A stretch of 64,000 nt of DNA from Nemophila menziesii (taxonomy: Eukaryota; Streptophyta; Magnoliopsida; Boraginales; Hydrophyllaceae), in assembly GCA_029959085.1 (NCBI GenBank), contig JARWIR010000016.1, forward strand, positions 18,671,499-18,735,498, in the 5' to 3' direction. Within the stretch, counting starts at the first letter, position 1. Each line of letters starts with the position of its first letter. This document shows positions 18,888 to 59,094 of the stretch, one piece after another. A program made the translations under genes and the position numbers. Below the pieces are notes generated by a model. The model ran no database searches. It worked only from the letters and a program-made list of their open reading frames with translations, and was not told the DNA's origin.

Positions 18888-19707
18888 CTAGTAATAATTA
18901 CCCCCGAGGATCATTTCATTACCTGAAAAGAAGAAAAACAGTGAGAATGAAAATATTAAAAATGATAATTATTAATTAGACAGTAGCAATGAATTAATAT
19001 AAGCATACGCATACACATACACATTAGAACAAGAACAAAAACGAAAGTACAGCTTTGATCGATGTTAATGAAATACTTTTTTATAAAAGATGCAATCATG
19101 TATTAGCATCAATATTGTGGGGTTCTTCCACTTATATGTATAATTCAAGCATGCAGATAAAGTAAAAGGTAAAAATAGGAAACAAACAATTCACACAGGA
19201 ATACTAAAACAAAACAACACCACAAAACTTTGGCATTTCAACAACACTTTCCACCTTTCATCCATCGTCACTTATTCACACAACACACCCTTCAATATTT
19301 TTCTCTTTTAAAAATTAGCTATACATAAACAAACGCCCTTTAATTTATATACAGTTTCTGCAAAAGCTTTTTGATGACAAAGATTTACTTTTTTTAGTTT
19401 AATTGTTCGATATAGTTATCACAGATGTTTCTATTTTACTCATTCATTCAATCAACCATGTAATGTAATAATAATAATAATAATTAAATAATAGATTACC
19501 AACCTTAGAGGATACTGAGGAACCTGAGCTTAAACTATTGACCTCCCGGTCCCGGTCGGTTATGGGATGAGCGGATCCGTACCAACTATAAAGTTCGGAA
19601 ATAACCAAACCTATCACACAGTAGGTATACGGATGATTAATAATGTTCGGTTTCTCTTCAAAAACGTATTTGTTACCAAATTCTCTGAGGAATTTTCTAA
19701 ACGCCAT
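18888..19707 (-). CDS. Small two-exon gene A, 80-aa probable membrane protein
   Basis: Exon 1 is 19500-19707 (208 nt) from the ATG in tcaatggcg. Exon 2 is 18888-18922 (35 nt). The intron is 577 bp with donor G|GTAATC and acceptor TTTTCAG|GTAATG, and the joined codon is GGT. The protein has 80 residues: MAFRKFLREF, a hydrophobic centre (YCVIGLVISELYSWY, about residues 29-43), then AHPI, then the Ser-rich EVNSLSSGSSVS, and the tail NEMILGGNYY. The 5' leader contains aaccctaa and pyrimidine tracts. The same exon phase, splice sites and C-terminus recur in gene B (57948-59094), which supports a real gene. I recognise no family. One membrane span is likely; function is unknown. Coding divergence from gene B far exceeds intron divergence. 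Confidence 0.7.
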
Positions 19708-20229
19708 TGATTATGATTGTTTTGCAAACCCTAACGGCCTAACTCTCTATTTCTCTTTTTTTTTTCTCTCTCTCTCTTGTTTTTCTAATTAGATTATTTT
19801 CACCAAAACAAAAGAGGTCCATATATATTTTGTTTCTGGACCTTGGGCTAGCTTGACATCAATTGTACTACTGATACCCTTTAATGTTTAATAGGATTGA
19901 GATTTTATTTTATTTTAATCAAAAAGACCGTTTTAATTAAAAGGTCAACAGGTAGGGGTCTTTTTGTTGGACAAGTAAAGTATCAAAAACCAAAAAGGAG
20001 AAGTAGATATAATTTGAGTAATGATATTTGTCACCCTTTTTGTATCACCTATTTATCACCTCCTACGTGTATGTCTACATGTACCAATGAATTGAATTCT
20101 CTATCCTATTTAATTTTTCTCTATCTTCTATTTAAGGAAATCTAAACATATATATAGAAAGGTGATACAAGGATGACATGAAAAGGAATGACATATATCA
20201 TTACTCATATAATTTATCCCACCTTTATT

Positions 20230-20920
20230 AAAATTTATCCCATTTCCATTTGAATACTGAGATAAGAATGAAGATAGAACAAATTTTATCTCAGTCTTAA
20301 AATTATATATGAGACAAATTTTATCTTAGTTTTAAAATAAAGATGGAACAAATTTCACTAAGTTATGAGACAAATTTATCTCAATCTTAAAATAGAAGAT
20401 GTGGCAAATTTTATCTCAGTTTTATAATAAAACGAGACAAATTCCCCCTTACCCCCATAACCCTTCCTTTTTCCCAAAAAGAAAAGTATATTAAAAAATA
20501 AAAAATTATTTTCCACATGGGTCCCTTGTTGAAAAAGAAAAAAAATCTAAAAATAAAGAAATTTGCACTCCAGGCCCCTTGCTTGAATTGAAAAAAATTA
20601 AATTCTTTTTTTCCCTCGTTCTTAAACAATTAAAATAAAAAAAAATAATAATTTACCGCGGGCCCTTTCGAGAAGAAAAAAATTGCTTACTGCTGGAAAA
20701 GAAAAAAAATGTCTAACTGATGGAATAGGAAAAAAAATCTACAAATAAACCCGCCCTTCTCCGGGCCCTTAACTGGAAATGGAGAAAAAAATCCCCCCCG
20801 GGCCCTTTACTAGAAAAAAATAATTTCCACGGACCTGTTGGAAAAACAAAAACAGATTATCCTCCCGACCCTTTCCTAGAAAAGAGAAAAATTAAAATTT
20901 GTTCTCGAGACCTTCGCTAA
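20230..20920. repeat. Degenerate repeats atctcagt and gggccctt-type
   Basis: 20230-20450 repeats a unit around gacaaattttatctcagt, four to five times. 20500-20920 repeats gggccctttNctagaaaag at irregular 50-70-bp steps. Block 2 has the first array at 59460-59590 and one or two copies of the second at 60240-60370. No coding function. Confidence 0.6.
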
Positions 20921-22641
20921 AAAAATATAATTATTTTTGTTATTCTAATTATTATAGTTATTATTATTATTTAATATTTAAAAATATAGGTTAACTTTCA
21001 CATCTATAATAACTAGGTATGACCCGTGTCTAAAGACACTATGAAAACTAAAAAAATCCTTTAAACTATACAATAATAGTGTGTAGAGTTTGAAGTTTAG
21101 GTTTTAGAGACGCTTTTGAATTTCAAATTCTCAAAAAATAAAAAAAAATTGCAATAATATAACATAAAGACATCGATTATATTTTGATGTTATCATTGTT
21201 TTTTTTGTGACATCCACATTCAATTCGATTAAATTGCAACGTATAGCACAAACAATATCGCAGAATGAAAAAGTCTATATTTACTTACAGATTTTATACA
21301 CATTTTTTTAACAACTTTCTCAATATAAACATCCTCGCTTCATTAGTCATGTCAAAAAATCTAGTTGTCAAACATCATCAGAAACTCTCTCGTGGGAAAA
21401 ATTAGTACCAGATAGAATTGGTATCGCCATATAATTATCAGATTTTTCATCCTCATTGGAGGACAAAAAAGATAGACCCATCCAAATCTTACAACCTTGA
21501 GAATTTCACACTATTTGCATTAAACATATCTATCCCAACATTTTTCCCTAAAAAGTTTTATCTCAATAAAAGAAAAAAAGGTTGTACCTCTACATAATTA
21601 ACCAAGCCAAGGCCCCGTGATGCAATTACATAAAACCAAAACAATGAAGTATGACAACTACTCCCTAATGGAAGAAGAGTTGAACGTAAAAATAACGCCA
21701 GAAGACCAAATAGTACTGCAAATATAAATTTCAGATTCGGTAGGCCACTTAAGCAACTTGCTGGGGCATTATAAGCTACACAAATTCACAAAAATCTTGT
21801 CCACTATGCCCAAAGGAGACCGAGTTTAAGTTATCCATAATGTCGAACCTTCGCAAAGAGGAATGTGATTTTCTGCCCCTTCTACAATTACTTGGGACCC
21901 AATTATCTATAACATTAAATTAATAATTTTTTATCAAGAAAATGTCAATTTGGCCTTTACCAATGAAACTATACCAACTGGTGAGGTTCCGTGATGTGGT
22001 TGTAAGGTCGCTTCTACACGAGGGATACATAGAAGAAGCTGCATATCAAAAAATTGCACTGTATGTTCCTATATTATACACAAACTGCACTATAGGTCCG
22101 TATATTTTGCAAAAATTGCATTACATGTCCCGATATTAATTTTTTTGATTAATTAAGTTATAAATCTCTATATTATACATAATACCCTATATTTTAATAT
22201 AGAAAAAATAAAATATTCATAGAATAACATGAATATAAACCTAATAAAATAAAATCTTAAAATTTTAGGGGGTGCTTAGGGAAAATTCTAAAATTTTTGA
22301 AGGGGCATAAGTTAATTAATTTTTTTCAGTTGTCAGGGTAAAAAAATTCTTTTCGTGGGGCCACGAGATATGATAACTTAGTCCCTTACCTTGCAAAAGT
22401 AACATTTTTATCCCTAATCTTCTGATTGCTTGATATCTTGTAAATATAACAAATTTGTGACAGATTTAGTCCTTTTATCTTGAAAATATATTGCAGTTCT
22501 ATAACTAAGTTGTCAAAAATGTTGAATAAAAGACCAAATAAGTTATTTACGCAAATAATGATAACAATGTTTCAAAAGAGCCTAACATATAGCAATTCAT
22601 GTAAAAAACAAAAATAGAGTATGAATCAGAATCACTTAAAA
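20921..22641. other. Anonymous AT-rich intergenic DNA
   Basis: No ORF with family motifs or conserved repeats stands out. Around 22040-22140 a phrase like ttgcactataggtccgtat recurs in variant form near 23530-23650, as in worn MITE copies common in plants, but no ends could be fixed. Confidence 0.4.
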
Positions 22642-23089
22642 TCATTTACAATTAGAATCACTCCAAGCAACCAATTCATTTGCTGCTTCAGGTCCAGAAA
22701 TCTCAACGTCTTCCATTTTGATCTCACCATTTAGGACATTCTTAATTTTTCTCCAATCTTCAATACTTGAATCAGAATCAAAAGATGAACTTTCAGTTTC
22801 ACTTTTACTCTCTTCATCACTTACTACTTGTTTCTTCCCTAAAACTACCAAATCAAAAAACACCATTTAAACTAACCATCTCCAAATTCCCCTCAGTTGG
22901 GTTGTTTTGGATTATTTTCTCAACAAAACAATCACCCAGCTCAAAAACATCGAAAGATTCTACCAATATTGTCTCATCACCAATAATTCTATCGATTTCG
23001 TTAAGCCAGATTCCTATTGAATCAAAATCAAGAAAAGAATAATCAATAGGTAAAGAAAAATATTGGGAGCTAGTAGAAGGAATCATCAA
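22642..23089 (-). pseudogene. Acidic 148-codon ORF broken in a T run
   Basis: The upstream part from ATG 23089 encodes MMIPSTSSQYFSLPIDYSF onward to NLEMVSLNGVF, then stops. The downstream part (to 22642) continues as DLVVLGKKQVVSDEESKSE, a serine/acidic stretch, and ends ISGPEAANELVAWSDSNCK. Both join if one T is removed from the run at about 22857, so a single-base insertion probably disabled one gene. The Ser/Asp/Glu-rich stretch with GEI followed by ISGP and NEL weakly recalls the N-terminal region of plant NAF1-like snoRNP assembly proteins. No core domain is present, so this is only a suggestion. Confidence 0.4.
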
Positions 23090-23935
23090 TATTGTTCAGT
23101 TTGTGATTAGGTTTAGCTTATGGTCTTAGATAGATGCATGTAGATAGTTTAAAAGATATTAGGTCTGTATCTTGGTGTGCCCTAAGACCATCTACAGTAG
23201 TTGCGTCAAATAGATATTTACTCCAAAACAATTGCAGTATAACACCAAATTGCTCACTCCAAAATCGAAGTATCATTCTCCCAAATAGTGTTTCATGTAA
23301 GATAATAGTGAGGTTATAGTGTTACATGTAGAATTAATGGATAACAATGTCTGAATCATCAGACATTAATACCAAATGTAAAATTGTAAATATATTAGTC
23401 TCCAAATATATACTTACAGGAGTGTGTTATATGTTTTGAGCACAACATACCTTTCTTTTGTCGGAATAAATACCCCTATTCTGTTGCCAAATTTTCTCAG
23501 CCATCGATCTTCAAATCAATTTATTGTGATTGCACCATAGGTCCCTGTATTTTATAAAAAATTACAGCACATGCTCATGTATTATGCAAAATAAGTAATA
23601 TTTTCGATTAATTGCATTCTAGGTGCCTCTGACTCTGTTATGCAAAATCACTAATACTATTATTAAAATATTAATCTCATACACTAACGTAAGTTATACT
23701 TAGAACATACTAAGATCAGATTGTCAAATAAATCCAAATTAATCAAATTAATACGCATATACGTATTATACAATCACCGATAAATCATATTAAGGATTAA
23801 ATATACACTAATTAATTGCGATAGTTATTATGATTTTTTGGAGAACATCTTAATTTAGAAAAATTCGTTACACAAAAATAAATAAAAAAATACAAATTGA
23901 AAATATAAGCAAATATTTACCGTGAGAGTATCAGA

Positions 23936-24088
23936 TCAATCGGTGATGGGAGAGTCTTTAGAGTTAGGAAATGAGTCGTAAAATCCATAAGAAAAGTCAA
24001 ATTCATCATTAGAGATGTCATTCATATTGACGTTGAAGCAATTGCACCAGTTCTGACCACATTTCACTGTTACCTTCAGTGACGCCAT
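23936..24088 (-). CDS. Short ORF, 50 aa, unknown
   Basis: The ATG at 24088 starts MASLKVTVKCGQNWCNCFNV, followed by an acidic, aromatic tail ending KDSPITD. A donor-like ACG|GTAAAT lies 18 bp after the stop, so this could be the first exon of a disrupted gene. No family is recognised. A transposase fragment begins just upstream on the opposite strand. Confidence 0.25.
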   Translation of the reverse strand: MASLKVTVKCGQNWCNCFNVNMNDISNDEFDFSYGFYDSFPNSKDSPITD

Positions 24089-24109
24089 CTTATCCTCTTC
24101 AATAAAATT

Positions 24110-24330
24110 TTGTGTGGGTGCATAGTGTATACAATTAATGATTATCCAGTGAGATCGTACGCATCGGGTTGGTTGGGTCAAGGTTACAAGACATGGTCGG
24201 AGTGCACAGATTCTGCGTCTCCTTTTCGAGTTAAAAAAGTGATATTGTATTTCGATCACAAACGATGGTTACCACTTTCATATCCGTTACAAAAAATATG
24301 TCTTTGTATCAGAAGAGCAAGTATAGAGAT
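24110..24330 (+). pseudogene. CACTA transposase (TNP2-like) fragment
   Basis: The frame reads TINDYPVRSYASGWLGQGYK, then SECTDSASPFRVKKV and HKRWLPLSYPLQ. This is the conserved stretch of En/Spm TNP2 transposases where a Cys-containing motif follows SGW and precedes H-R-(R/W)-x-L-P. The homologous piece in the 52-55 kb transposase reads YTSGWSGQGYMACPECMDST. Here the first Cys of the CPxC pair is lost (TWSEC). No flanking transposon ends are visible. Confidence 0.7.
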
Positions 24331-24382
24331 CTTCCTAAGAAATATAGTCTTTCCAGTATCCAAACACAACTTGACTATTTAA

Positions 24383-25060: not shown

Positions 25061-25128
25061 TTGGGAGTATATATAGATTTAGATAAGGAGGTTGATATTG
25101 GTGTGGATGAGTCTCTTAGAATCCTGAC

Positions 25129-26997: not shown

Positions 26998-27011
26998 AAT
27001 ATTATTAATGG

Positions 27012-27129: not shown

Positions 27130-27156
27130 AATATTATTAATGGTCAATAAACATGT

Positions 27157-27162
<6 letters not shown>

Positions 27163-27241
<79 letters not shown>
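27163..27241. repeat. (AT)n microsatellite
   Basis: About 39 uninterrupted dinucleotides. Confidence 0.97.
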
Positions 27242-27243
<2 letters not shown>

Positions 27244-28393: not shown

Positions 28394-28399
28394 CTGCAA

Positions 28400-32546: not shown

Positions 32547-35500
32547 GATGATGATATGGAATTGTCAAGGAGTTAGGGCGACCTCGACAAAGAAAATGAT
32601 TCGCGCCCTTATTTCGAAGTTTAATTTATCTTTAGTATGTCTTTTGGAGTCTAGAGTTATGGCTAGTAATATTCGGTCTTGTCATTTTCTTAAGCGTTTT
32701 GATAATAAGTTTATAATCAATCCCAGGGGAAGAGCTAATAGGTCTGGGGGGGATTATAATTGCATGGAGAAGTAATATTAATATTAGTATTTCCTATTCG
32801 TGTTCGTGTTATGCAATCTGCCTTGTCTCTGAACCCAAGGTAACTCCATGGTATCTTGTGGTTGTTCATGCACCCAATGATCAAATTGAGAGAGAGATGA
32901 TTTTCGACAATATATCAAAATGGAAAGCAAATACTAATGAACCCATCCTCATAACGGGTGACTTCAATGAAATTTCGAAAGCGACTGACAAACAAGGTAA
33001 AATTGCACCTAGCTTGGAAAGGATGTTGAAATTTAACAAGTTCATTAACGATAATAACCTTATTGACATCCCGTATAAAGGATGTCATTTCACATGGACC
33101 AATAAAAGAAAGGGGGAAGATTATGTTAAAGAAAGACTTGATAGAGCTTTGTCATCCGAAACTTGGTGTATGGATTTCCCAGACTCGTTTATTAAAGTTC
33201 CTCCGGCTATCGGGTCGGATCATTCGCCTATTATTATACAAAGAGACACTAGCTTTACGGGAAATAAAAAATATTTTATGTTTGAGTCGCGATGGATGGA
33301 AAATGTGCAATGCCGAGATGTGGTCGATAGGGCTTGGAACAATCTTAATGAAGTATCATGCATTAAAGATATTACAAATAAAAAAGAGAATATGTGTAAC
33401 GCCCTAAAACATTGGAGTAAATCGACGTTCTGTAATAGTAAAAAAATGCTCGATAAGTATCAGACTCTATTAGAAAAGCTACAAAACGCGGAAGCCACCG
33501 AGGAAAATATTAAACTTGAAAGTGATATCAAGCAAGAAATAAATTCCTTATGGGCTCAAGAGGAAGCTTTTTGGGCGGATAGGGCGCGTGATATTCACAT
33601 AAAAAAGGGTGACAAAAATACTAAGTATTTTTTCGCAAAAACACAAATGAGGAGAAGTCTAAACCGCATAGTGACACTAAAAAATGACGATGGGGTTTGG
33701 TGTGATAACGTCAAGGAGGTCAAAAAAATCATCCAGGAATATTTCATGAATTTGTTTAGCGAAAATCCGACATACAACCTAGAAAAAGTAGCTTCTTTTA
33801 CTCCCACAAAAATTGATGAAGATACAAATAATTTTCTGACGAAGGTACCTGATATGGAAGAAGTTAGGAATGCCGTCTTTTCTATGTCCGGAAACAAAGC
33901 GCCAGGACCGGATGGCCTTCCGGGTAATTTCTATCAAGAATTCTGGGACATAATCAAAGACGATATTTTTAAAATCGTCCACGATTTCTTCGCTTTTAAC
34001 ACCCCTCTGGATGACATTAATGATACTTTAATCTCCCTCATTCCGAAAGGTGATATTCAAGAATCCGTCAAAGACTTTCGCCCGATCTCGTGTATTAATT
34101 TTTGTTATAAGATAATTGCAAAAGTTCTGGCTCTTAGACTTCAGCTGATTATGGAACAGCTCATCTCCCCTACTCAGCCGGCTTTTATTAAAGGCAGAAG
34201 TATTCAAGATAATATTATTATCGCTCAGGAAATTGGCTTTTTTCTTAAGACGAAAAGAAAATCCAACAAGCATTATGGAGTAGCAAAAATAGACATGGCC
34301 AAGGCATACGATCAAGTGAATTGGAAATTCTTGATGGAAATTCTTAAAAGTCTTGGATTCGGGAACAGGTTCAGGGATCTCATTTTCAATTGTATTTCTA
34401 CTGTTTCATATCAAATCAAAGTAAACGGAGAAAGGATGAACAAATTTAAGCCAACCCAAGGAATAAGACAGGGCGATCCTCTTTCGCCCCTACTTTTCTC
34501 TATGCTTACGGAAGGTTTGATAGGTCTTATTAATTTGGAGTGCAGAGAAGGTAACATTAAAGGCATCTCGATGGCCAGAGCGGCTCCTAGACTTACCCAT
34601 CTGCTTTTTGCCGATGATTCATTATTTTTCCTTGAAATCAGCGATAGAGAAATTGAATCTTTCAAGAACGTCTTATCCAAATATTGCGAGGCCTCGGGTC
34701 AAAGGATTAACTTTAATAAATCAACCATCATGTTCAGCAATGGATTCGATGAGACTAAAGCTAGAAGTGTAGCTCAAAATTTGAATATTGAATTTACCAA
34801 ATCTTTGGGGAAATATCTTGAGATCCCATTTTCCTTAAAGAGATCTAAAATACAAAATCTACAGTATGTTACGGATAAATTCATGAACAAGTCGGCAAGC
34901 TGGGTTTCAAAACAACTTTCCGATGGCGGGAAAGAGATTTTGATCAAATCGGTATTACAATCTATTCCTAACTATGCCATGTCTATCTTCGAATTCCCGA
35001 CGACACTATGCAAAAGACTTAGCAGCCTGATAGCTAAATTCTGGTGGAATTCATGTGATAAAAAAAGAATACATTGGGTGAAATGGAAAAAAATGGCAAA
35101 AGGGAAAAAAATGGGTGGTGTTGGCTTTCGGGATTTATAGAAAATGAACTTAGCGCTATTAGCAAAACAAGCATGGCGAATCTTACATAATCCTGAGCTC
35201 TTAGTGGCCAAAGTTATTAAAGTAATATATTACCCCAATTCTAATATTTGGGATGCGAAATTGAAAAATAAAAGATCATGGAGTTGGGGAAGCATATTTA
35301 AGGGCCTTACTTTTTTAAAAGAAGAGTGCATTTGGCAAATAGGTAACGGTCTTAGTATTAACATTTGGAATGACTGTTGGATAAGCAAGGGCTACAAGTT
35401 GACTAAGCCGGACAATTGTTCTCTAAATAAAGTTGCTGAATGTTTCAACAATAACCTCACGAATTTGAATTTTGATATTCTGAGGAACTTTTGCTCTCCT

Positions 35501-36669
35501 AAAGATATTGTCGAAATCAGGAAGATCCCTATTATGCAACTCGAGAAGGAAGATAAAGTCATATGGCCTTTCACAAAAGATGGCGAATTTACTACCAAAT
35601 CGGGATACCATAGACTTGTGCAAAAAGAAGTTGATAAAGAGGGAGAATCTTCGGCTGATGGGGAACGAAATAATAACACCGAACTTTGGGACATCGCGTG
35701 GAATTCTAATATACCGCTTAAAATAAAAAACTTCATTTGGAAAATTTTCAACAATGCCATTCCAACAAAGACTAATCTCAAAAAGAAGAAATGTATGGAT
35801 AATAGCGTATGCGAGTGGTGCGAAATAGAGGACGAAAACATAATGCATCTTTTTGTTAAATGCCCCCTAAGTAGAGCGGTTTGGGCTAATTCTCAACTTC
35901 AATGTAAAATTGACACCTCTTTCCAAGGGAGCATTAGCGATTGGATCAGCTTGATTGTGAATAATTATTCCAAAAACGGATGGGATAAAAGAATTGTATC
36001 GGCTACAGTATGCATCACAATTTGGAATATTTGGAAAGCGAAAATGGGAGGTCTATTTGAAAAGAAAGCCTGGAATATCACTTAAATAAATGAGAAAACA
36101 AAGGAACTCCTAAAGAGGATTTTTTCAGACATCAATAGTATCGGCAACAAAAAGAACATAAATAATTCAGATGACGAAGACTTTATGAATCCTTTTTTAG
36201 GTGATGATGCGGATATATTATGGATGTGCGATGCATCTTTCAATCATAGCTGGGAGCCGGCAGGTATTGCAGCGCTTGGAGCAAATAAAGAGGGAAGTGT
36301 AGAACACAAGATTATCAAGAGAGCTAGAGTCAACAAAGCCATAGAAGGAGAAAGCTGGGAGGTGTTGGTAGCCATGAGGGCTGCAGCTGAACACCATCTA
36401 CAGAATAGTTCATTCTATTCTGACAACCTTGAGTTAGTACAAGGTATCACCAAGAGAAAAGCGTTAGTTGGCAGATACGGCCAATGATCAACACAATTCT
36501 CGGTTGGATGGAAAAATTTCCAAATTGGAAGGTTTTCCATATTAAAAGGATTTTGAATCAGATTGCTGACTTAGCGGCTAAGGCAACTAGGAGGGGAGTC
36601 GACATTTCGAGCATACCGCATTGTTCTATTTTAGATTTTTTTAACATCCTATCTAGACTTAAATTGTAA
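32539..36669 (+). pseudogene. LINE ORF2: endonuclease, reverse transcriptase, RNase H
   Basis: The ATG overlaps the preceding frame. The endonuclease starts MIWNCQGVRA. The G run near 32746 shifts the frame (RSGG continues as IIIAWRSN in +1). From 32858 a 760-codon frame holds ITGDFNEI and SDHSPIII (endonuclease), then RT blocks PGPDGLPGNFYQEFW, FRPISCINFCYKIIAK, AKIDMAKAYDQVNW, GIRQGDPLSPLLFS and LLFADDSLFF (intact catalytic FADD). A TAG at 35138-35140 stops it before NLALLAKQAWR. A TAA at 36083 follows. RNase H has CDASF, EGESWEV and YSDNLEL, then a frameshift near 36480 before KRILNQIADLAAKATR. In total: two frameshifts and two stops. Confidence 0.9.
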
Positions 36670-43850: not shown

Positions 43851-45240
43851 TGTTGGCATATAGCCTCCCTTAATAGGTTGTTTTAATATGACAAATCCTC
43901 TTGTGTTTAGTGTGCTAATTACTCTTGTTATTTATATTCCTTCTTGTACTCTTTTTCATCAAAAAGCACTTTTTTATCTTTTAGATCAAAGCTTTATTGT
44001 TATATGCTATGAAACTAATTCTCATATAAATACTTTTAACCTTATCTTTGTGTACTTTGAGAATCAGCTTTAGTGATCAACTTCAAAGTTTCTTAGAATG
44101 ATATTTCCAACAACTTTCATGAAGAAGATTTATTGGTCCAAGTCATTATCTTTCAAAGTTACTTGGCGCGGTACACCGGACGAATGGCGCGGTACACCGG
44201 ACCAAGAATGCGGACCAGGGCGCGGTGCAGAGGCTAGCCCGTCAGTAAGTTAGAAAATCAAACCATTGAAGTGCGGTACACCGCACGAAATCTTGCGGTA
44301 CACCGCAAGAAAGGTTTTTCTGCACAAAAGACAAGTCATAAGCAATATATCCGTTGGGAGATTAATAGATCCGTTGGACCCAAGTCTTATGAGCGTTGGA
44401 AGCCATTTTCTACTATAAATTGAAGCTCTTTGAAGGCTACAACTACACCAACTAATTACAAACACTAAGGGGCTTAATTGCTATCATTCAAGAAGGTGTC
44501 AAGTGCTATACATAGTCAAAATCAATCTTAGTGAGCTTATTAATCCTTTCAAGGAGTTAATCAATTAAGCCACAAGGTTCTATCCACTCAAGAGGAGTAA
44601 TCAAGCTTATAGTCATATCCACTCTTTTAGGAGTTTAGTTACAAGCTTTTATAAGCAACCCTTTAAACACTTTGTTGCTATCCTATTAAGTCTAGGTCTT
44701 GTAATAGATAGATTAAGAGAGAATTCAAGTATAGGGAGTATACTTGGTGTCCTTGTGTTGTGACTACACAAGTGTTTTTGTCCTTCGTGTTATCGAAGAG
44801 TTTGTAAAGGTTATTGTGTTCTCGACCCGGTTAAGAGAGACACGGAAGCTTAGTGAAAAGCTTGAAATCCTAAGGAGGCTTCCTTAGGTAGTGGATGTAG
44901 GGAAACCGAACCACTATAAATCGTGTGTATCTTTCTATCCCTACTCTATTTACTTTCCGCACTTTATATGTTTGATAATATGCTAGCATGAGTATTGTGA
45001 TATTGTTTATCTAGGTTATCTAACATATAGTCTTCTAGAGTAGTTTAAGATATTGGATTGACGATTTACTTGTTATACTTTTATATCAAACCTCTAACTT
45101 ACCTTTGCATGATCCTATAAGAGTTTGATTTAATTAGTTGACTTAGAAGTTTTCTCTTAAACTTATAATTGTCCAAAAGATTTTTTAATTAGGCATTAAT
45201 CTTATTAGTAATCCTATTCACCCCCCCTCTAGGACTTTCA
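43851..45240 (+). repeat. 5' LTR (1,390 bp)
   Basis: Compared base by base with the 3' LTR by eye: nine substitutions and no indels, 99.35% identity. Contains the gcggtacaccg cluster (44168-44306) upstream of a tactataaattgaagc TATA-like site at 44411, so transcription probably starts just downstream of it. Confidence 0.95.
44168..44306 (+). promoter_or_regulatory. Cluster of gcggtacaccg(c/g) palindromes in the LTR
   Basis: Four 12-mers lie at 44168, 44189, 44273 and 44295. The last two extend to gtgcggtacaccgcac and ttgcggtacaccgcaa, full hairpins. The cluster sits 100-240 bp upstream of the TATA-like site, so it could be an enhancer or transcription-factor site. The 3' LTR has the same set, with one copy mutated. 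Confidence 0.6.
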
Positions 45241-45242
45241 AT

Positions 45243-45254: not shown

Positions 45255-45298
45255 CTAACTCTACGTGAATAGCTTAATCGTTAGTAGAGTAAACGATA

Positions 45299-46351
45299 AT
45301 GGCATCTAATCTTTTGGAAAGTTCGTCTTCTACTCGACCTCCACTTTTTGTAGGAACTTACTATTTTGCTTGGAGAACAAAAATGGAGGAATTTATCAAA
45401 GCCGAAGATCCCGATCAATGGAGAATCTTTATGGAAGGTCCATTCATTCCTTATAGAGAGGAGCTAAATGAAGCGGGAGTTCTTAAGCTAAATCAAGAAG
45501 AAAAAGATTTTGATGAACTCACCATTGAGGAAAAGGCTAAGCTCACTCAAAATGCAAAACCGATGTACACTCTCATTCGTGGAATTTCCGAAGAAATTTT
45601 CTCACAAATGTTAGATTGTAAATCCGCAAAAGAACTTTGGAATCGTTTGGAGTTTTTATATGGAATTGTCGGAAATGACGGAGAAGAAGAAGTCTTAATC
45701 CATGATGAATCTCATGACAATTCTAAACCAAATCATGAGGTAGCACTCTATCCTAACTCTTTATCTCTTCCTTATAATTATGGTGATATTAGGCAAATTT
45801 CATCCCTTCTCAAAATTCTTGATTCTCAAATCCATTTGAATAATCTTATGTTAAAAAAGGGTAAAGTTGAGCTAAAGAATTGTTTTAAATGTTGTATCAC
45901 TTTGGATGATATTCTTGGCAATACTAAAAACCCTTGTTTTGAAAACATTTTTTCTTCAAATAAATGGCAACATCCTATGAAGAAAAATTTAAAAGGTTTT
46001 ATAAAATTGGATGAAGCTTTTTCCCTCGCTCTTGAAACTTTAAAAAATCATCCTTTTTCAAATGTCACTCCTTTTGATCCAAATGGCTTTTTTAAAGAAA
46101 AATTATTTTTAAGTGATAATTTGGATATTGGAAAGAATGTGGGATCTTCATGTTCAAAACCCTCACATAGTAGCTCTACTCGAAAAAGAAGTTCTTGCAA
46201 TTATTGTGGTAAACCCGGTCATCATGCTTCTACGTGTCATTACCATGAACAACTTGAAAGTGGATCTTTGATACCTTCATGGGAAAAACCAATATGGATC
46301 GTGACAAATGCTAACAACATTTCCGGATCCATTCCACCTCGGTTACCATAA
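45299..46351 (+). CDS. Copia-like Gag, 350 aa
   Basis: The start ATGGCATCTAATC lies 58 bp after the LTR. Residues 15-35 (PPLFVGTYYFAWRTKMEEFI) match the copia Gag opening F-x-G-x-x-Y-x-x-W-x-x-x-M. Residues 85-120 (YTLIRGISEEIFSQML, SAKELWNRLEFLYG) match the A-x-x-x-W-x-x-L helix region. A zinc knuckle CX2CX4HX4C (CNYCGKPGHHASTC) sits near residues 300-313. Protein length and order are those of the nucleocapsid-forming protein, which packages element RNA. The frame stops after PPRLP rather than running into protease, so polymerase is missing by deletion or replacement, not by frameshift. Confidence 0.88.
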   Translation: MASNLLESSSSTRPPLFVGTYYFAWRTKMEEFIKAEDPDQWRIFMEGPFIPYREELNEAGVLKLNQEEKDFDELTIEEKAKLTQNAKPMYTLIRGISEEIFSQMLDCKSAKELWNRLEFLYGIVGNDGEEEVLIHDESHDNSKPNHEVALYPNSLSLPYNYGDIRQISSLLKILDSQIHLNNLMLKKGKVELKNCFKCCITLDDILGNTKNPCFENIFSSNKWQHPMKKNLKGFIKLDEAFSLALETLKNHPFSNVTPFDPNGFFKEKLFLSDNLDIGKNVGSSCSKPSHSSSTRKRSSCNYCGKPGHHASTCHYHEQLESGSLIPSWEKPIWIVTNANNISGSIPPRLP

Positions 46352-49400: not shown

Positions 49401-50790
49401 TGTTGGCATATAGCCTCCCTTAATAGGTTGTTTTAATATGACAAATCCTCTTGTGTTTAGTGTGCTAATTACTCTTGTTATTTATATTCCTTCTTGCACT
49501 CTTTTTCATCAAAAATCACTTTTTTATCTTTTAGATCAAAGCTTTATTGTTATATGCTATGAAACTAATTCTCATATAAATACTTTTAACCTTATCTTTG
49601 TGTACTTTGAGAATTAGCTTTAGTGATCAACTTCAAAGTTTCTTAGAATGATATTTCCAACAACTTTCATGAAGAAGATTTATTGATCCAAGTCATTATC
49701 TTTCAAAGTTACTTGGCGCGGTACACCGGACGAATGGCGCGGTACACCTGACCAAGAATGCGGACCAGGGCGCGGTGCAGAGGCTAGCCCGTCAGTAAGT
49801 TAGAAAATCAAACCATTGAAGTGCGGTACACCGCACGAAATCTTGCGGTACACCGCAAGAAAGGTTTTTCTGCACAAAAGACAAGTCATAAGCAATATAT
49901 CCGTTGGGAGATTAATAGATCCGTTGGACCCAAGTCTTATGACCGTTGGAAGCCATTTTCTACTATAAATTGAAGCTCTTTGAAGGCTACAACTACACCA
50001 ACTAATTACAAACACTAAGGGGCTTAATTGCTATCATTCAAGAAGGTGTCAAGTGCTATACATAGTCAAAATCAATCTTAGTGAGCTTATTAATCCTTTC
50101 AAGGAGTTAATCAATTAAGCCACAAGGTTCTATCCACTCAAGAGGAGTAATCAAGCTTATAGTCATATCCACTCTTTTAGGAGTTTAGTTACAAGCTTTT
50201 ATAAGCAACCCTTTAAACACTTTGTTGCTATCCTCTTAAGTCTAGGTCTTGTAATAGATAGATTAAGAGAGAATTCAAGTATAGGGAGTATACTTGGTGT
50301 CCTTGTGTTGTGACTACACAAGTGTTTTTGTCCTTCGTGTTATCGAAGAGTTTGTAAAGGTTATTGTGTTCTCGACCCGGTTAAGAGAGACACGGAAGCT
50401 TAGTGAAAAGCTTGAAATCCTAAGGAGGCTTCCTTAGGTAGTGGATGTAGGGAAACCGAACCACTATAAATCGTGTGTATCTTTCTATCCCTACTCTATT
50501 TACTTTCCGCACTTTATATGTTTGATAATATGCTAGCATGAGTATTGTGATATTGTTTATCTAGGTTATCTAACATATAGTCTTCTAGAGTAGTTTAAGA
50601 TATTGGATTGACGATTTACTTGTTATACTTTTATATCAAACCTCTAACTTACCTTTGCATGATCCTATAAGAGTTTGATTTAATTAGTTGATTTAGAAGT
50701 TTTCTCTTAAACTTATAATTGTCCAAAAGATTTTTTAATTAGGCATTAATCTTTTTAGTAATCCTATTCACCCCCCCTCTAGGACTTTCA
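49401..50790 (+). repeat. 3' LTR (1,390 bp)
   Basis: Same length as the 5' LTR. Nine single-base differences were counted, at 49497, 49516, 49615, 49685, 49749, 49923, 50235, 50692 and 50753 (approximate). One of them breaks a gcggtacaccgg motif. Confidence 0.95.
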
Positions 50791-52109
50791 AATAAGAAGA
50801 TTTAGGAAAGATTTATTCAAAGAAGGAAAAGATAAAGTTGCCTTGTGAATCTGAAATTCCAGCCACGTTTTAAAGATGAATTCATAACTAAATATTGGCA
50901 AGGATTCTGGACGAGTGGTCTGCACCAATAGAAAGCTCTTTCCAAGACAAGCAGTTTCATATATTGGAACGTCTCAAACGGATAAGGATTGAAAAAGATA
51001 TGACCAAATCAAATCAGCAGCAAAATCTTACCTTTCCTAGAATTTAGGGCTACGAATTTAAGAGTCTTTGCCTTGTCTTCCACTCCAAGTAATTCGACCT
51101 AGGGCATGCTAACACCTATAAATACACCCCTTAGACCTCATAATTCAGTACCTCTCACAATTTATTTAATTCATACATCCTTAGAGAGAGAGTCAACAAC
51201 TTCAGAGTAAGAAGGCAAAGGAGAAGCTAGAGCTTGAGGAATTCTGTTCTTCCGTCAACAGTCATCTAATCCTTAGGTTATATATTTCTTTTCTGTAATT
51301 GAATATGATGTCTTTCTATTTAATTTCAGTCTTTAATATTACCATGAGCTAAACTTTTATATACTTGAAAATCGCAATAAAAGGATGAACCTTAATTAAT
51401 TATTTCTATATTTTGAATTTGGGATTGTTTAGATTTAAATTGAATTAGTTCTTAGATATTGGATATTACTTTGTTCTTAATCACTATTTCTTTTCGGTAC
51501 AACTAGAATTAGATTTTAGTATTTGGGCTATTCACTTTAGTGGCGAAGTGATCATCCGACATGGGGGTTTGAATATATATCTAGGTAATACCCGTGTAAT
51601 GTCTGTTATTGACCGACGGGCTTAACTAGTTACATAGCCAAAGAGGTAAAATCATATCATCCGAAGAGGCATATTCGACCATACAGGTGTTTATGATACT
51701 TTAGGATAGCTCCTAGGTCAACCCGACAGGGGGCTAGGAGATATTAGAGTCCCGACTAGTATACTAATACCAATTCTACCCTTAAACATAACATAGATTA
51801 TATTAGTTAGGAGAATTCTTTGCGAGACTCAAGTATATCCCATCTCTGAAGTTAGTCCTTTTACTTTATTATTTCTTTTCTGTTAATTTATTTTATTGCA
51901 TATTTAGTTTTAAGAAAACCAAACAAAAATCATATTATTTTGTTAAACAACTATTCTTACTATCTGATTAATATTGGAGTTGAACCTAATCCGTCCCTGA
52001 GAACGAACTCGATTTATTGAATATTACTTGGAAAACCGTACACTTGCGGTAATTGTGGTTCCTTTATTTCCGTACTTAATTTAATAACACACCAAGACCC
52101 ACCAAGGTT

Positions 52110-55100
52110 ACCCAGTGTTCTGTCCTCGCATCGCCCATTCTGTACCACTTACAAACAAATAACACAACCGAGGACCCTCCAGTGAACAGAACCTCAAGAT
52201 TTTCAATAATTCACCGTAATAAGGTGACCCATCGTACATGGTACAAACTCCGTAATCTTGTGTCACTCTTTTCTATCCTTTATCTTTAGTTACCCACTTG
52301 ACACCATTCACAACACATTAATCGTATTTATGCACCACACCATAAGACATGTTTGCCAAGGACACCATCTCAGGGGTAGCTAATGCATCACCCCGGGATT
52401 TCATTCCATGAATCTGTCATACAAAAATAATACTTAATACTTTGAAAATAAATAGGCAATATTTAAACCAATGTCTAAAGTTACATACCTTTTCCAAAAA
52501 CCATCCATTAAACATTTGACGGTGCATATTCTCTATTTCGCTACTCGTTCCCGAAAGCGTGATTTTGTGTTCACTAAAAACGTAAATGAATATAAATAAA
52601 TTAATGTTAATATAAATATAAGTATAAGTATAAGTATAAGTATAAGTATAAATATAAATATACATATAAATATACATATAAATATACATATAAATATAAA
52701 TATAAATACAAATACAAATACAAATAAAAATACAAATAAAAATAAAAATACAAATACAAATACAAATACAAATACAAATACAAATACAAATACAAATACA
52801 AATACAAATATAAATATAATATAAATATAATATAAATTAAATATAAATATAAATATAAATATAAATATAAATATAAATATAAATATAAATATAAATATAA
52901 ATATAAATATAAATATAAATATAAATATAAATATAAATATAAATATAAATATAAATAAGTAAACATTACTTACGTCATGTATGTTTAGAGTTCGTCGCAA
53001 TTATTCAAAATATACCAACTGATGTGCTCCTTATCCTTAGGCAGTAAGGGACAAGACTCTTTTTTGCCAACTGGAGTACACTGAGACTTGAAAACAAATA
53101 GCTCTTTTGGTTCTGGCAATGGTTCGTTGTATCTACCTAAATCGTTGAACTTTGTTTTTTCTTTACTAAGATACCGTCAAATGAAGGTCAACGTCTCTTC
53201 CGCCACGTAACCCTCAGCTATTGAACCCTCTGGCCTAGCCGGGTTTCGAATATACTCTTTCAACTTTTTCAAGTACCTTTCAAATTGGTACATCCACCGT
53301 ATTTGAACCGGACCCCCTAGTAATGCTTCATCGTATAAGTGTATCACCAAGTGGATCATTATATCAATAAATGCGGGAGGTAAGATCATTTCTAGTTTGC
53401 ACATCACTTCAACAACTCCCTCCTTACCGGCTTCCAACTATTTCCTACTCAGATTCTTGTTACAAACGACTCTAAACACGTTAGCTAACCAAATAATCGC
53501 ATCGCTAACCAGTTTATCCTCTATAAGACCGGGGAGACAACAAACAAAAACATATAGCATCATAGTGTGACAATCATGCGATTTCATTCCAAAAGTCTTT
53601 CCTGTATCAACTTGAACATTATTCCTCAAACTGGACGCGAAACCATCGGGAAACCTCTGTGTTAGTAACCACTCAAGAAATTTTTTCCGCTTCTTCGCTG
53701 ATAACGTATACTTTCCTCGCTTTAGTATCGGTTTATCTCCTCTTGATTCCAACCACAACTCTTTCCTGATGTTCATATCCTGGAGATATGCGCCTTCGCG
53801 TTATCTTTGTTTATTTTTCCCATCAAGTCCTATAACTGTACCAAGCAAACTATCGCACACATTCTTCTCGCAATGCATTACATCAATGTTATGTTTTAAC
53901 AAATTGTCTGACCAATACGGTAAACGATAAAAAATACTCCTTTTCTTCCAGTTGGACTCGCGAGGGCCTGTTTTCTTCGTCGCCTTGTCCCCAAAATCCT
54001 CGTGTTTACCCGGTAACACAATAGGCAACCCATTCAACTTTGTCTGAATATCGGCCGGACTATGTTTCCTCGGTGGGCCCCTGTTCGGTAACCGGGTACA
54101 AAAATCTGTCTTTTCTAAATCGATGCATGATAGGTAACCAACGTCTATGATCAACGTAAGGGCATCTAAAACAACGTCTATGATCAACGTCTATGATCAA
54201 TGTCTATGATAGGTAACCAACGTATTTTCTAAACCACACCTTTTTTCACCTTCAACGACAGAGTAGAATCCATGCATTCTGGGCAAGCCATGTAACCTTG
54301 ACCCGACCATCCTGAAGTGTATGATTGAGCGGGGTAAACATTGGTCGTGGTCAACAAACAAATCTTCATAATAAAATCTTGCTTCGTATGGGCATCATAC
54401 GTAAGTAACTCTGTTTCCCACAACATGTCTAACTAATCTATAACAGGGCGGAGAAAGACACCCATGTCCTTTCCGGGTGAGTGGGGACCCGGAATCAACA
54501 AACAAAGCTGAAATGTGGTTTCCTTCATGCATACCCACGGTGGCAAGCTGTAGACAGTGAATATAACAAGCCACATACTAAACGAGTTGTTCTACATAGA
54601 AAACAGACAAAAACCATCGATACCCATGCCCAAATATACATTCTGATGTTCACTGGAAAACTCTGGATGTAACTCTACAAATCGTTTCCAGCTACCACTG
54701 TCAACTGGATGACTTAACAAATCTGGATCGGTACTCTTTCCGGTATGGTGCCATATCATTTCTTCAACGGTGTGCTTCGAAGCGTATAGTTGCTGCAATC
54801 TTGGGGCAATCGGAAAGTAACGAAACTTGTTATGCGGTACTTTCTGACCCTTCTTTGGGTCCCATCTCGATTCACTACAAACTGGACACTTGTCGAGGAA
54901 TTCATTCTCTTTGTAAAAAATGGTACAATCGTTCAAACAGACATCGATAGTAGTATTCCCCATACCCAAACTTTTCAACTTCTTGTTTCATGCTTCATAA
55001 GAATCGAGCAAATTGTGAGTTTTGGGAAAAATACGACCAACCAAGTCCAATAGCTCGGTGAATGATGTGTTAGTCCACTTGTTCTTTACTTTTACGTGCA

Positions 55101-55572
55101 TAAGCTTGGCAATGAAATTCAAGGAACTCATCGCTGTACAACCAGGATATAATTCTGTCTCAAATTCGTCGAACAATTCTTCAAAACTGCTCCGACTAGG
55201 AAGATGTGCGTCTCTCATTTCGGTATCACCGGGATGTCCACCAACATCTTAACTGCGTCTCAAATCGTCACAAACATCATGCATTTCATTTTTTATATTT
55301 GGCATAGGAATTGCTTCGGGGATTACCATCTGCTCACCGTGTTTTGTCCAAACCTGATACGTATACTTAAACCCGGATTTTAGAAGGTGGCCCCTAACCG
55401 TTTGTGTGGGTAATAGACAGTAATTATTACAATTAGTACACTGGCAAGACATGTAACCATTATAACCATCTTTTTTCTTGGCATTTTGGATAAAAGCCAA
55501 AACCCCAAAAATATATTTTTTCGTAAAATAATTCGTCGTATTGATCCAACTCTTATCCATACCCGGAGCCAT
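52110..55572 (-). pseudogene. CACTA transposase (TNP2-like), main part, broken
   Basis: Pieces in gene order from 55572: transposase-associated domain (MDKSWINTTNYFTKKYIFGV, CQCTNCNN, VRGHLLKSGF, WTKHGE); ELYPGCTAMSSLNFIAKLMH; CPVCSESRW; YTSGWSGQGYMACPECMDST; RSIFYRLPYWSDNLLKHNID with VMHCEKNVCDSLLGT; YTLSAKKRKKFLEWLL and GLKSHDCH-like GMKSHDCHTMM; then DUF4218 (CKLEMILPPAFIDIMIHLVI, ARPEGSIAEGY) and DUF4216 start (DYGVCTMYDGSPYYGELLKI). The protein would cut and join CACTA termini. Lesions: frameshift near 53800, a TAG at 53438, a small local duplication near 54150-54220, and the LTR insertions. Confidence 0.85.
52600..52958. repeat. Hexanucleotide (ATAAAT)n / (ACAAAT)n array in a transposase intron
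   Basis: About 360 bp of (A)taa-type hexamers in three blocks: gtataa, acaaat and ataaat. On the minus strand two frames stay open only because the period is a multiple of 3. It lies between DUF4218 and a piece reading SEIENMHRQMFNGWFLEKV, so it is probably intronic. Confidence 0.9.
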
Positions 55573-56549
55573 CTTTTAGCAACAATAGGATACAAATAAG
55601 CAACTACATTCATATGAAAATAAAATTAATAATTATTACAACCCAAATAATAATCTGAATAAAAATTACAACCCAATGAATAAAATAATAAAAATTACAA
55701 ACCCAATGAATGAATAATAATTACAAACCATCGAATGAATAAAATTATAAACCATTGAATTGAATGAATAAAATTATAACCCAATAAATAGATAAACAAT
55801 TTCAAATAATTAATTAAACATATAAAAATAGATGAGAAAAAAATATAAATAAAATAACACATGCATAATATACAGCATACTAATAATCAAGACAATAAAA
55901 AAACAAGTTAATTATGAACCTAAACATATCTTATAGCAAGTAACACAAGTATAATCCAAAAAAAGTTTGAAATTTAATGAAAATACCTTGAATTGGTTGG
56001 AGAAATTAAAGATTGATGATCATTCCCCACCTTGAAAATGTATTACTTAACCTATTCAAATAATATAGCAAGAAGAAAACACAATTATAAACCAAAAAAA
56101 ATTAAAAAAAATTGAATTTTCATGAAATTGCCTTCAATTGTGTGATGAAATTGGATATTGACAATGCCCCACCTCGACTATGAACCCGGAAATGGTGCAA
56201 GATGAATTGGAGATAAAAAACCTGTTGTCTTCATTAAATACGTTTTTTTAATTACCGAAGACACGTGCCATCGGTAAATTCAAAGGTGTCGTCGGCAATA
56301 GACTTTATTAGCGACAACTAACATCGTCCCAAATATAGCGACGACACTTTGAACGGTAAAAGGAAATCAAAAATAAAAAAATGTTACCGACGAAATATTA
56401 CAGCATTAGGTGCGATTTCTTCTCGTCGCTATTCTGCAACAACGTTTTTGTCGCCGTTAACAAAAACTTGTCGGTAAGTCTTAAAATTTACCGACGAAAC
56501 GCGTGTCGCCGCTAACATTTCGCCCCTAAAAATGTTGTTTGTAGTAGTG
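55573..56549. other. CACTA right end: leader, first introns and subterminal repeats
   Basis: 55573-56240 holds AT-rich leader sequence with no ORF. 56245-56520 carries ccgacga, gtcgtcgg and cgacgacac motifs. The terminus is atgttgtttgtagtagtg. About 106 bp present in the tandem copy (61091-61190) is missing here at 56210, between short ggaga repeats. Confidence 0.75.
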
Positions 56550-57138
56550 GCGTGTATAACTATACACGGTCTATTAGAGAAGAGAGAATACTAGATAAAA
56601 GATGAAGGTTTATAATGAAAACGATAATGTAAATAGTGGAATTTATTATGGGTATACAACTTTGACGAGACTAGTCGATATGGTTCAACGGGCATGATAG
56701 GCCAACTTTACTATATGAGATGGCCCACTGCTTAAACTTTTTTAGCCCGAACTCGGCTCACCTACTGAGCAAGATGGGAAAAGAGAAGACATGCTAATGC
56801 CGAGTCAACTTGGATCAACATGCCGCTCATCTCATTGTCCAACATCCAGACTATCAGATCCTTTTGTTTTTTGTAATATTGATAAAAGATTGATATTGTC
56901 TTACTACTCTACGAGTTCATGTCACCCACAACAATTTCCATTTGAATATCTCTTTTACCACTTTGAATCAAAAGCGTATTTATTTAGAGGGATATTTCTT
57001 GTCGATGATAGGTATTTATCCGTCTCATAGTCTTTTGGTGGTTTACCCTTTTATAAATCTTACCAAAACCTTCCATGTTATGTAGCATCATTTGATCTTT
57101 TAATGTTCCAGATTTATGTTGCATTACACTTTTTTTTT

Positions 57139-57215
57139 TTGATATATGAGTATTCGCGCACCACGACTATTCCTTTAGGAAATATACACGCTAAGGGATT
57201 CAAACCTTGTAGGAG
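57139..57215 (-). mobile_element. Truncated SINE copy
   Basis: The segment gatatatgagtattcgcgca to gattcaaaccttgtaggag matches the SINE at 62725 but lacks its tRNA head. It was lost by deletion relative to the tandem copy. Confidence 0.6.
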
Positions 57216-57262
57216 TTTGAAAAGAGGGTGTTCTAATTTTGGGATGGATGTTTGAAGATCTT

Positions 57263-57365
57263 TTGACTCTTCGGACTCAGAGTCATTTTGACTCTAATGA
57301 GATTCGATCCCAGGATCTCTTGGTCTCCGCGGAGTAGTCTAACCACTAGGCCAACTATCGATCTC
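57263..57365 (-). mobile_element. tRNA-derived SINE, 103 bp, with 17-bp target duplication
   Basis: The perfect flank ggatgtttgaagatctt occurs at 57246-57262 and 57366-57382. On the minus strand the head reads gttggcctagtggttag (A box), followed by gggatcgaatctc (B box). The tandem copy at 63098 shows the empty site. Confidence 0.9.
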
Positions 57366-57382
57366 GGATGTTTGAAGATCTT

Positions 57383-57940
57383 ATGGATAACTAGATCACT
57401 TTATAGATTTTAAAAACTGTTTTCAATTGTTTTTAAAATCTTGTATCATGTTCTTAATTTAATGTTATTATTCAAACAAATTTTTGGACAAAAACACATT
57501 TAAACAATGAAATTAAATTTCTCAGAATTAGAGTAAAAAAATCAGGTATGTGAATGTAAAATGACTTTCATGGTTCTTTTTATTATTTTTTGGTCTACTA
57601 TATTAGTATTGCAATTCACATTTAGGCAAAGAGCGCAAAAGACAAAAATCCAAAGACAGGAAAATGTAAATTTGCAATTCACATCCTCAAAATAAAATAA
57701 TGTCAGCAATCTTAAAAAAATACACAAACATACAAACAAAGCTTCTACAGTGTATAATCGAAACAGGAAAATATAATTAATTGGGTAATTAAAATTTAAA
57801 ACATCATGATAGTTCACATTAATACTTGGAAATTATCTTATATTTAATACTCCTAAGTGGACAATATATTTCGAACATTATTTTTAGTAAGTGGATAATT
57901 TCAGTGGAACGGAAGGAGTAGTAACAAGAAGGCTGCTACC
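57383..57940. other. Non-coding part of block 2
   Basis: Collinear with 63115-63340 at first, then with 18601-18880 of block 1. No ORF with support. Confidence 0.5.
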
Positions 57941-57947
57941 CAACTTT

Positions 57948-58722
57948 CTAGTAATTACCCCCGAGTATCATTTGATTACCTGAAAAGAAGAAAAACAGTG
58001 AGAATGAAAATAGTATTTAAAATGATAATTATTAATTAGACAGTAGCACTGAATTAATATAAGCATACGCATAAGAACAAGAATTGTGGTTGCAAATGTA
58101 ACTATTAACCCTAAACACTTCTAATGGGTATTAACTATTAAGCCCCCAATAGGAACCGCCTAACACTTCACCCAACCCAAAGGCATTAGAGTTAAACTTA
58201 AGAATACAAATTTCCCATAAGTAAGCACTCAAGAATTAGGAAAGAAAAAGAGCAAAGTATAAACTGAACGAGATGGCAAAAATACAATTAAACCAAAGTA
58301 CAGCTTTGATGTTCATGAAATACTTTTTTATAAAAGATGCAATCATGTATTAGCATCAATATTGTGGGGTTCTTCAACAATTATATGTATAATTCAAGCA
58401 TGCAGATGAAGTAAAAGGTAGAAATAGGAAACACACAATTCACACAGGAATACTAAAACAAAACACCACCACAAAACTTTGGCATTTCAACAACACTTTC
58501 CACCTTTCATCCATCGTCACTTATTCACACAACACACCCTTCAATATTTTTCTCTTTTAAAAATTAGCTATACATAAACAAACGCCCTTTAATTTATATA
58601 CAGTTTCTGCAAAAACTTTTTGATGATAAAGATTTACTTTTCTTAGTTTAATACCCCTTCATTTATTGTTTCATATAGTTATCACAGATGCTTCTATTTT
58701 ACTCATTCATTCAATCAACCAT

Positions 58723-58773
<51 letters not shown>

Positions 58774-59094
58774 CAATAGATGTGCATTTAGTTGTCTTAC
58801 ATGAGACTCGGGATATTCCCCACTCCATGGCATGACACCTTTCGCTCATCCATTCCGCCGCCCTTTCTCATTACCAACCTTAGAGTTAGCGGATACTGAG
58901 GAACCTGAGCTTAAACTATTGACCTCCTGGTCGTTGATGGGATGAGCAAATCTGTACTGCCTACGAACGTCGGAAACAAATAAACCTAACACAAAGTAGA
59001 TTGACGGACGATTCAAAATGTGCGATTGCGGTTCAAAAATGTACGGTTTCTTCATTTCCCTAATCAATACTCTGAGCATTTCTCTAAACGCCAT
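57948..59094 (-). CDS. Small two-exon gene B, 83-aa probable membrane protein
   Basis: Exon 1 is 58875-59094 (220 nt). Exon 2 is 57948-57979 (32 nt). The intron is 895 bp with donor G|GTAATG and acceptor TTTTCAG|GTAATC. The protein begins MAFREMLRVLIREMKKPYIF and has a hydrophobic part (IYFVLGLFVSDV, about residues 32-43), AHPI, the Ser-rich EVNSLSSGSSVSANSKVG and the tail NQMILGGNY. Start, Ser-rich stretch, splice phase and tail equal those of gene A. The first ~50 codons differ heavily and by a 5-codon indel, while intron and flank are almost unchanged. The intron also has a (TAA)n tract expanded from that of gene A and ~225 bp not present there. No family is recognised. Confidence 0.7.
58724..58771. 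repeat. (TAA)n microsatellite in the intron of gene B
   Basis: Sixteen TAA units. Gene A has about seven at the same place (19464-19485), so the tract expanded or shrank after duplication. Confidence 0.95.

Follow-up and report, generated by a model that had tools for sequence, protein, structure and literature searches.

The window, a 64,000-nucleotide stretch of the Nemophila menziesii genome (contig JARWIR010000016.1, positions 18,671,499 to 18,735,498; G000:C68:18671499-18735498 in our notation), carries two predicted small genes, A and B, on its minus strand. They belong to a locally clustered family in which a coding core has diverged faster than the non-coding DNA around it. Each gene comprises two exons, and the predicted proteins are 80 (A) and 83 (B) amino acids long. 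Exon 1 of gene A encodes an N-terminal segment followed by a hydrophobic segment and a charged tail. Both introns begin with GTAAT, finish with TCTTCTTTTCAG and interrupt a codon after its first base (phase 1); these features and the coordinates (Table 1) confirmed the common start, splice sites and exon phase given in a preliminary description of this DNA. A short tandem repeat, GGGAATCGTCCTTGA(C/T), lies upstream of gene B at 59737-59860.

Divergence between A and B was highest in a segment with sharp borders inside exon 1. Within BLAST blocks, 17 of 547 intron columns differed (~3.1%), as did 6/163 in the proximal 5' region, 38/576 in the 3' flank and 76/576 (~13%) in the distal 5' flank. 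MAFFT, which unlike the BLAST blocks also aligns insert borders, gave 28-34/573 for the intron and 11/158 for the proximal 5' region. From MAFR to AHPI, a stretch of 45 codons, 40 of 135 sites differed, exceeding every flank (Fisher p = 3.6e-18 against the intron and 1.4e-5 against the distal 5' flank). The maximum-likelihood divergent segment (A 19695-19547) held 42 differences in 143 columns with a log-likelihood (lnL) gain of 36.8, compared to a top gain of 10.8 among 100 column shuffles scanned at six fixed lengths. The earlier claim that the coding exon diverges far faster than its own intron therefore held, the non-coding parts other than the distal 5' flank having diverged by about 3-7%. 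Other details needed amendment. Near-identity applied to the intron and to the first ~180 bp of the 5' flank, not to its distal part. From PNIINHP to AHPI, we counted 24 differences in 90 sites (30 codons), with 17 nonsynonymous and 2 synonymous codons, in place of 25/93 with 18 and 2. The MAFR and EVNSLSSGSSVS ends are unchanged as described, which is no sign of special protein constraint because the surrounding DNA diverges at about the flank rate. After AHPI there were 4 differences in 84 sites, with a nonsynonymous rate (dN) of 0.048 and a synonymous rate (dS) of 0.054.

Table 1. Predicted features of genes A and B and of related copies (window positions unless a contig is given).
Feature	Position	Strand	Remarks
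Gene A, exon 1	19707-19500	minus	ATG at 19707; open frame; start and donor common to relatives
Gene A, intron	19499-18923 (577 bp)	minus	GT-AG, phase 1; blocks alignable across family
Gene A, exon 2	18922-18888	minus	GNEMILGGNYY + stop
Gene A, hyperdivergent coding core	19695-19547	minus	codon 5 to DR/DQ block; maximum-likelihood segment against B
Gene A, proximal promoter and 5' leader	19708-19888	minus	family-wide conservation; presumably a TATA-like block and GA-rich leader
Gene A, 3' flank	18351-18887	minus	within duplicated unit; holds conserved 3' block
Gene B, exon 1	59094-58875	minus	open frame
Gene B, counterpart of hyperdivergent core	58927-59082	minus	converted by hand from the A segment via the alignment
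Gene B, intron	58874-57980 (895 bp)	minus	~110 bp insert just inside donor; larger inserts near 3' end
Gene B, exon 2	57979-57948	minus	GNQMILGGNY + stop
Duplicated unit of gene A	about 15968-20649		blastn blocks
Duplicated unit of gene B	55497-60372		blastn blocks; tandem with unit starting at 60378
Next tandem unit, start	60378-63337		carries gene copy C, which is outside the window
Copy C (L011)	C68:18736317-18737241		just past window end
Copy E (L020)	C313:1850461-1850674		

The preliminary description had proposed a genome-wide search for further copies. Searches of the 1.52-Gb assembly (361 contigs) with A, B and the relatives L029 and L014 as queries yielded at least 50 loci, establishing A and B as members of a family; these counts are lower bounds because each search scores only its best candidates. 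The contig of the window (C68) held 39 of the loci and other contigs 11, and some of the 50 fetched loci carry family sequence only in part. Clusters on C68 were found near 0.03-0.7, 8.75-8.85, 10.4, 12.8, 13.4-13.6, 15.6, 18.7, 19.2 and 29.0-29.3 Mb, and sequence subfamilies mostly track these genomic clusters. Exon 1 was modelled for 35 loci, of which 25 are stop-free over the modelled stretch and 10 contain a stop. The model ends of L037, L038 and L056, where the donor was not found, were set manually, and the mapped donor is not GT in L013, L036, L041 and the stop-bearing L016, L033, L044 and L045. Many clustered copies with dead and apparently living members, the latter judged from open frames only, point to evolution of the birth-and-death kind.

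Some copies are unusual in structure. Seven (L049-L055) lie in segments 98.3-99.7% identical at both ends of contig C68. L049, the one that was read, has ATA instead of ATG plus a frameshift; the group, which points to a dead copy recently multiplied near the two ends of the contig, was left out of the analyses. Exon 1 has a tandemly duplicated start, with copies 110-116 bp apart, in L024, L025, L029 and L046 (C68:13.53-13.62 Mb), and in L025 and L029 both start copies are joined in a single longer frame of about 100 codons. The L048 intron contains a dispersed repeat present on many contigs. A search with L048 as query was discarded, as its matches were mostly to this repeat.

To map conservation between subfamilies, A was divided into 25-base segments, and the 45 loci not belonging to the A-E clade were placed on it. 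Alignability here depends on 7-base seeds, and identities concern alignable parts only. Immediately upstream of the ATG, a 25-base segment was alignable in 26.9/45 loci on average, at 92% identity, and segment means over the 125 bases nearest the ATG were 15-27/45 loci at 79-92%. Intron segments gave means of 12-31/45 loci at 71-94%, except for two (1.5 and 3.8 loci), and the 3' block a mean of 19.5/45 loci at 94%. Within exon 1, between codon 9 and about codon 58, segments aligned in means of only 5.3-7.4/45 loci, at 63-74%. Subfamilies thus remain alignable to one another in the leader, most of the intron and the 3' block, but mostly not in the exon-1 core. Venom toxins likewise have a coding core that is less conserved than introns and leaders.

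Among the fetched loci, A and B form a clade with copies C, D and E. Codon 21 is TAA in both C and E but GAA in A, B and D, and E has one additional base near its start. Core site patterns supporting AD|BC, AC|BD and AB|CD numbered 16:1:0; in the intron the same preference was weaker (5:2:1), and the intron-side tree recovered AD|BC with support 95. Exon and non-coding parts giving the same split, there is no sign of a separate exon history. All nine codons fixed between A+D and B+C are nonsynonymous (9/9). Private changes in the core and intron (about 141 and roughly 520 columns) numbered 11/7 for A, 7/3 for B, 3/25 for D and 1/9 for the stop-bearing C.

Selection on the A/B pair was examined through omega, the ratio dN/dS. 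With dS left free, omega was 2.1 for the 30-codon core (p=0.25), 2.8-3.3 for the 45 codons from MAFR to AHPI (p=0.036-0.065) and 2.3-2.5 for all 77 aligned codons (p=0.056-0.081). Fixing the neutral rate to any flank gave p <=8e-4, and omega <=0.5 was rejected (twice the lnL difference, 2dlnL, 5.7-11). A joint test for raised core dS returned p=0.06 against the intron and 0.09-0.82 against the other flanks. The preliminary description had proposed weighing dN/dS against intron divergence. We rejected the intron yardstick alone as sufficient proof, flank divergence within the A/B duplication spanning 3% to 13%. Core changes between A and B were milder in hydropathy than random changes (p=0.0065), indicating that the hydrophobic segment is kept; by BLOSUM62 the same comparison gave only p=0.09.

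The family as a whole was then the stronger source of evidence. A codon model with free branch lengths, taking dS from the exon itself, was fitted to nine clades comprising 29 sequences (A-D and eight others). Shared omega was 2.0-2.5. Twice the lnL gain over omega 1 was 17.7, 23.0 and 31.7 for a transition/transversion ratio (kappa) of 1.5, 2 and 3 (p=2.5e-5, 1.6e-6 and 1.8e-8, respectively), with intron kappa at about 2.3. The signal persisted without A-D (p=1.8e-5) and for the stop-free copies of six clades (p=4.3e-4). Seven of the nine clades gained. Three were significant singly: A-D (omega 2.43, p=0.037), L024/25/29/46 (3.15, p=0.009; best of three topologies) and L016/21/23/26/40/41 (2.74, p=0.011). 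The topology of the last was fixed as (L016,(L021,L041),(L040,(L023,L026))), whereas the intron tree paired L026 with L040 (support 59); branches of intron trees are inflated at inserts and were not used for rates. Across the family dN thus exceeds dS, and the diversifying selection first proposed for A and B is supported mainly by their relatives.

Twelve disjoint sister pairs, picked after inspecting the all-pairs table, gave a comparison with introns. The all-pairs table itself was not relied on because local intron alignments understate the intron divergence of distant pairs. The pairs do not include 11 of the 35 modelled loci, among them L047/L048, left out for a frameshift, and the frames of L021, L041, L023, L026, L044, L045, L030 and L037 were cut to their first 46-50 codons. 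Pooled proportions of nonsynonymous (pN) and synonymous (pS) differences were 154.5/1655 (9.3%) and 28.5/445 (6.4%), with 454/6415 (7.1%) in introns. Nonsynonymous divergence exceeded both intronic (p=0.003) and synonymous divergence (p=0.046); synonymous and intronic divergence did not differ (p=0.63). Individually, pN exceeded the intron in 8/12 pairs, and pS lay above the intron in 8/12 as well. It is thus amino-acid change that is accelerated, chiefly in some of the lineages. Exon indels in these pairs were multiples of three in 11/11 cases compared to 30/145 in introns (p=1.4e-7), a contrast partly due to construction, since only whole codons were retained in the models and copies with frameshifts were excluded.

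The predicted proteins share a pattern of an N-terminal segment, a linker often ending in N-P or S/H/R-P, a hydrophobic stretch and a charged tail. The N-terminal segment is amphipathic at nominal p<0.05 in 14/35 models. All 25 stop-free models contain a 15-residue stretch, with a maximum mean Kyte-Doolittle value of 1.05-2.49, and the family proteins would be small, probably single-span membrane proteins. A has one cysteine and B none, no common cysteine column was seen by eye in the family alignment, and the cysteine motif of SCR, LURE and defensin-like peptides was found in neither A, B nor that alignment. No protein relatives of A and B, the two members searched, were found among 5.8 billion proteins. 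A control with the LINE (long interspersed nuclear element) frame of the window matched 1245 proteins at E <=1e-20, many of the 120 listed being named plant proteins, so the database holds plants. With B as query, the Protein Data Bank (PDB) gave one chance-level match only (E 1.6). A, B and ten other members had no Pfam match above the gathering cut-off; matches at E 0.11-0.14 for three of the ten fell far below it and were taken as chance. No Rfam match was found in the window at the gathering threshold, nor over 18800-19900 at E up to 1.

We consider it likely that A and B belong to a birth-and-death family of small, probably membrane-inserted proteins, in which the coding core is under diversifying selection and the expression chassis is conserved. 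A and B would be two intact members of this locally clustered plant family, each copy being small, with two exons and a predicted product of roughly 55-90 residues. The protein has no cysteine scaffold, and its one hydrophobic stretch would probably enter a membrane. The promoter-proximal part, leader, intron, splice sites and 3' block would form the conserved chassis. Positive selection on the core in several lineages could then drive amino-acid changes past silent and intronic ones while hydrophobicity is retained. The family genes are presumably expressed and their products presumably inserted into a membrane. The driver may be an arms race or a recognition partner; defence, reproduction and genomic conflict are indistinguishable here.

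A number of observations weigh against this interpretation. With A and B alone, the selection signal is of marginal significance (p 0.036-0.25). A model with a core that is older and evolves at omega 1 does about equally well (lnL difference -1.1 to +1.7), so the pair by itself cannot decide. A/B exon pS (7.0/42.7) is above intron divergence (15/451), and 148 successive non-coding columns are identical between A and B (permutation p=0.011). The open frame of the A core is not in itself telling, as it stayed open after 40 random changes in 24% of simulations, and a stop within exon 1 marks 10 of the 35 modelled copies. Two of the nine clades, S3b and S7, lose slightly, omega 2 not being preferred over 1. 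Of the eight clades besides A-D, six are not significant singly, and L035/L036 has an omega of 0.80. Adding the stop-bearing E to A-D lowered the one-ratio omega to 1.56-1.65 (p=0.18); for A-E, values of 2.5-2.6 (p=0.03) were reached only with C and E set apart. Among the sister pairs, pN was not above the intron in L024/L046, L021/L041, L023/L026 and L018/L019, and it exceeded pS in 8/12 pairs. Intron divergence was below pS in 8/12 pairs, and the pooled equality leans on a few pairs with strongly diverged introns. L015/L038 and L023/L026 display the reverse pattern, with identical or near-identical exons and diverged introns.

Several of these points also fit gene conversion that homogenises the clustered copies in leader, intron and 3' flank but spares the exon core, perhaps because selection acts against converted cores. 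The apparent speed of the core would then stem in part from its greater age. We regard this as unlikely overall, yet it is a live rival, above all for A/B. Here the intron is far less diverged than the distal 5' flank, the identical non-coding run is long, exon pS lies above the intron with some indication of raised core dS, and an older core at omega 1 does about as well as selection. Elsewhere, pS above the intron in most pairs is in keeping with homogenised flanks, as is the alignability of introns between subfamilies whose pS is often 0.3-0.7, a comparison biased low on the intron side. Against it stand the same AD|BC split in exon and intron of A-D, the statistical equality of pooled pS and intron divergence, and the finding of omega >1 with dS from the exon itself, along with the rejection of omega <=0.5 for A/B. 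The split and the pooled comparison thus weakened, and did not remove, the alternatives of homogenised flanks and of an imported core raised in the preliminary description.

Two further explanations were considered. If the conserved product were an RNA (intron or leader), the small frame would be incidental and would drift neutrally, outpacing constrained non-coding parts. The non-coding parts are indeed the conserved parts of the family, and the empty protein-relative and Pfam searches are as this explanation would have it. We nonetheless judge it very improbable: neutral drift predicts omega 1, which was rejected, most modelled frames are stop-free, hydropathy is conserved between A and B, exon indels keep the frame (with the reservation on construction given above), and Rfam gave no match. 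Import of the core of A or B as a block from an older paralogue, to which we give the least credence, would account for the sharp borders inside exon 1 and would fit the exchangeability of exons shown by exon identity above intron identity in L015/L038, L023/L026 and L024/L046, but the exon split equals the non-coding split and no fetched locus resembles the core of A more than D does, or that of B more than C does, with the limit that searches returning best candidates only could miss a donor.

Families whose proteins outpace their introns usually mark an arms race, and the familiar cases are mostly secreted cysteine-rich toxins and peptides. SCR, LURE and defensin-like peptides of plants are small, clustered and fast-evolving, as is the A/B family. 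Their hallmarks are a signal peptide and a pattern of cysteines, the latter absent from the A/B family. Phospholipase A2 is a multigene example from snake venom, further to the three-finger toxins. For the latter, segment switching in exons is described in PMC2474615. The snake-venom families resemble the A/B family in being multigene, with highly similar introns and strongly different parts of exons, and in coupling duplication with accelerated coding change. The toxins differ in being secreted, with a signal peptide, ten conserved cysteines and exchanged segments; the A/B family is from a plant, has a hydrophobic segment without cysteine scaffold, and has changed by point substitutions and short indels. 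PMC4280545 contributes only a reference to classic phospholipase work. Conotoxin superfamilies, according to PMC3862624, have introns conserved within a superfamily, differing mature peptides, tests of positive selection and multiple gene copies. Conserved introns, differing peptides and multiple copies are shared with the A/B family. Conotoxin precursors have signal, pro and mature regions and cysteine frameworks; no such cysteine framework was seen in the A/B family. Word searches of the open-access literature showed no matching plant or small transmembrane case among the titles listed, which is no proof of absence. Membrane-inserting micro-proteins are not a protein class known to take part in such arms races. 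A small membrane-type plant family without a cysteine scaffold or Pfam match, and without a database relative for the two members used as queries, would suggest a recognition or conflict system overlooked by annotation pipelines. It is a speculative and rather doubtful extension that the family represents a venom-like gene design inside the plant cell, in which a conserved chassis carries a diversifying membrane-inserting micro-protein and has expanded largely on one chromosome region. Pathogen, pollen-pistil or organelle-nuclear contexts may be candidates for such an intracellular system.

The remainder of the window contains several repetitive elements. At 5856-15512, a ~2-kb unit is repeated head to tail in about five copies with an identity of about 91-94%; they contain small minus-strand frames ending in a hydrophobic stretch, some copies with stops. 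A LINE-type element with endonuclease, reverse transcriptase and RNase H-like domains lies on the plus strand at 32717-36487. Direct repeats at 43851-45241 and 49401-50791 are 99.35% identical and are probably the long terminal repeats (LTRs) of a recent retrotransposon; a copia-type gag match lies between them at 45293-46351. A tnp2 transposase match (Transposase_21) at 54592-54987 is probably a piece of a CACTA-type transposon.

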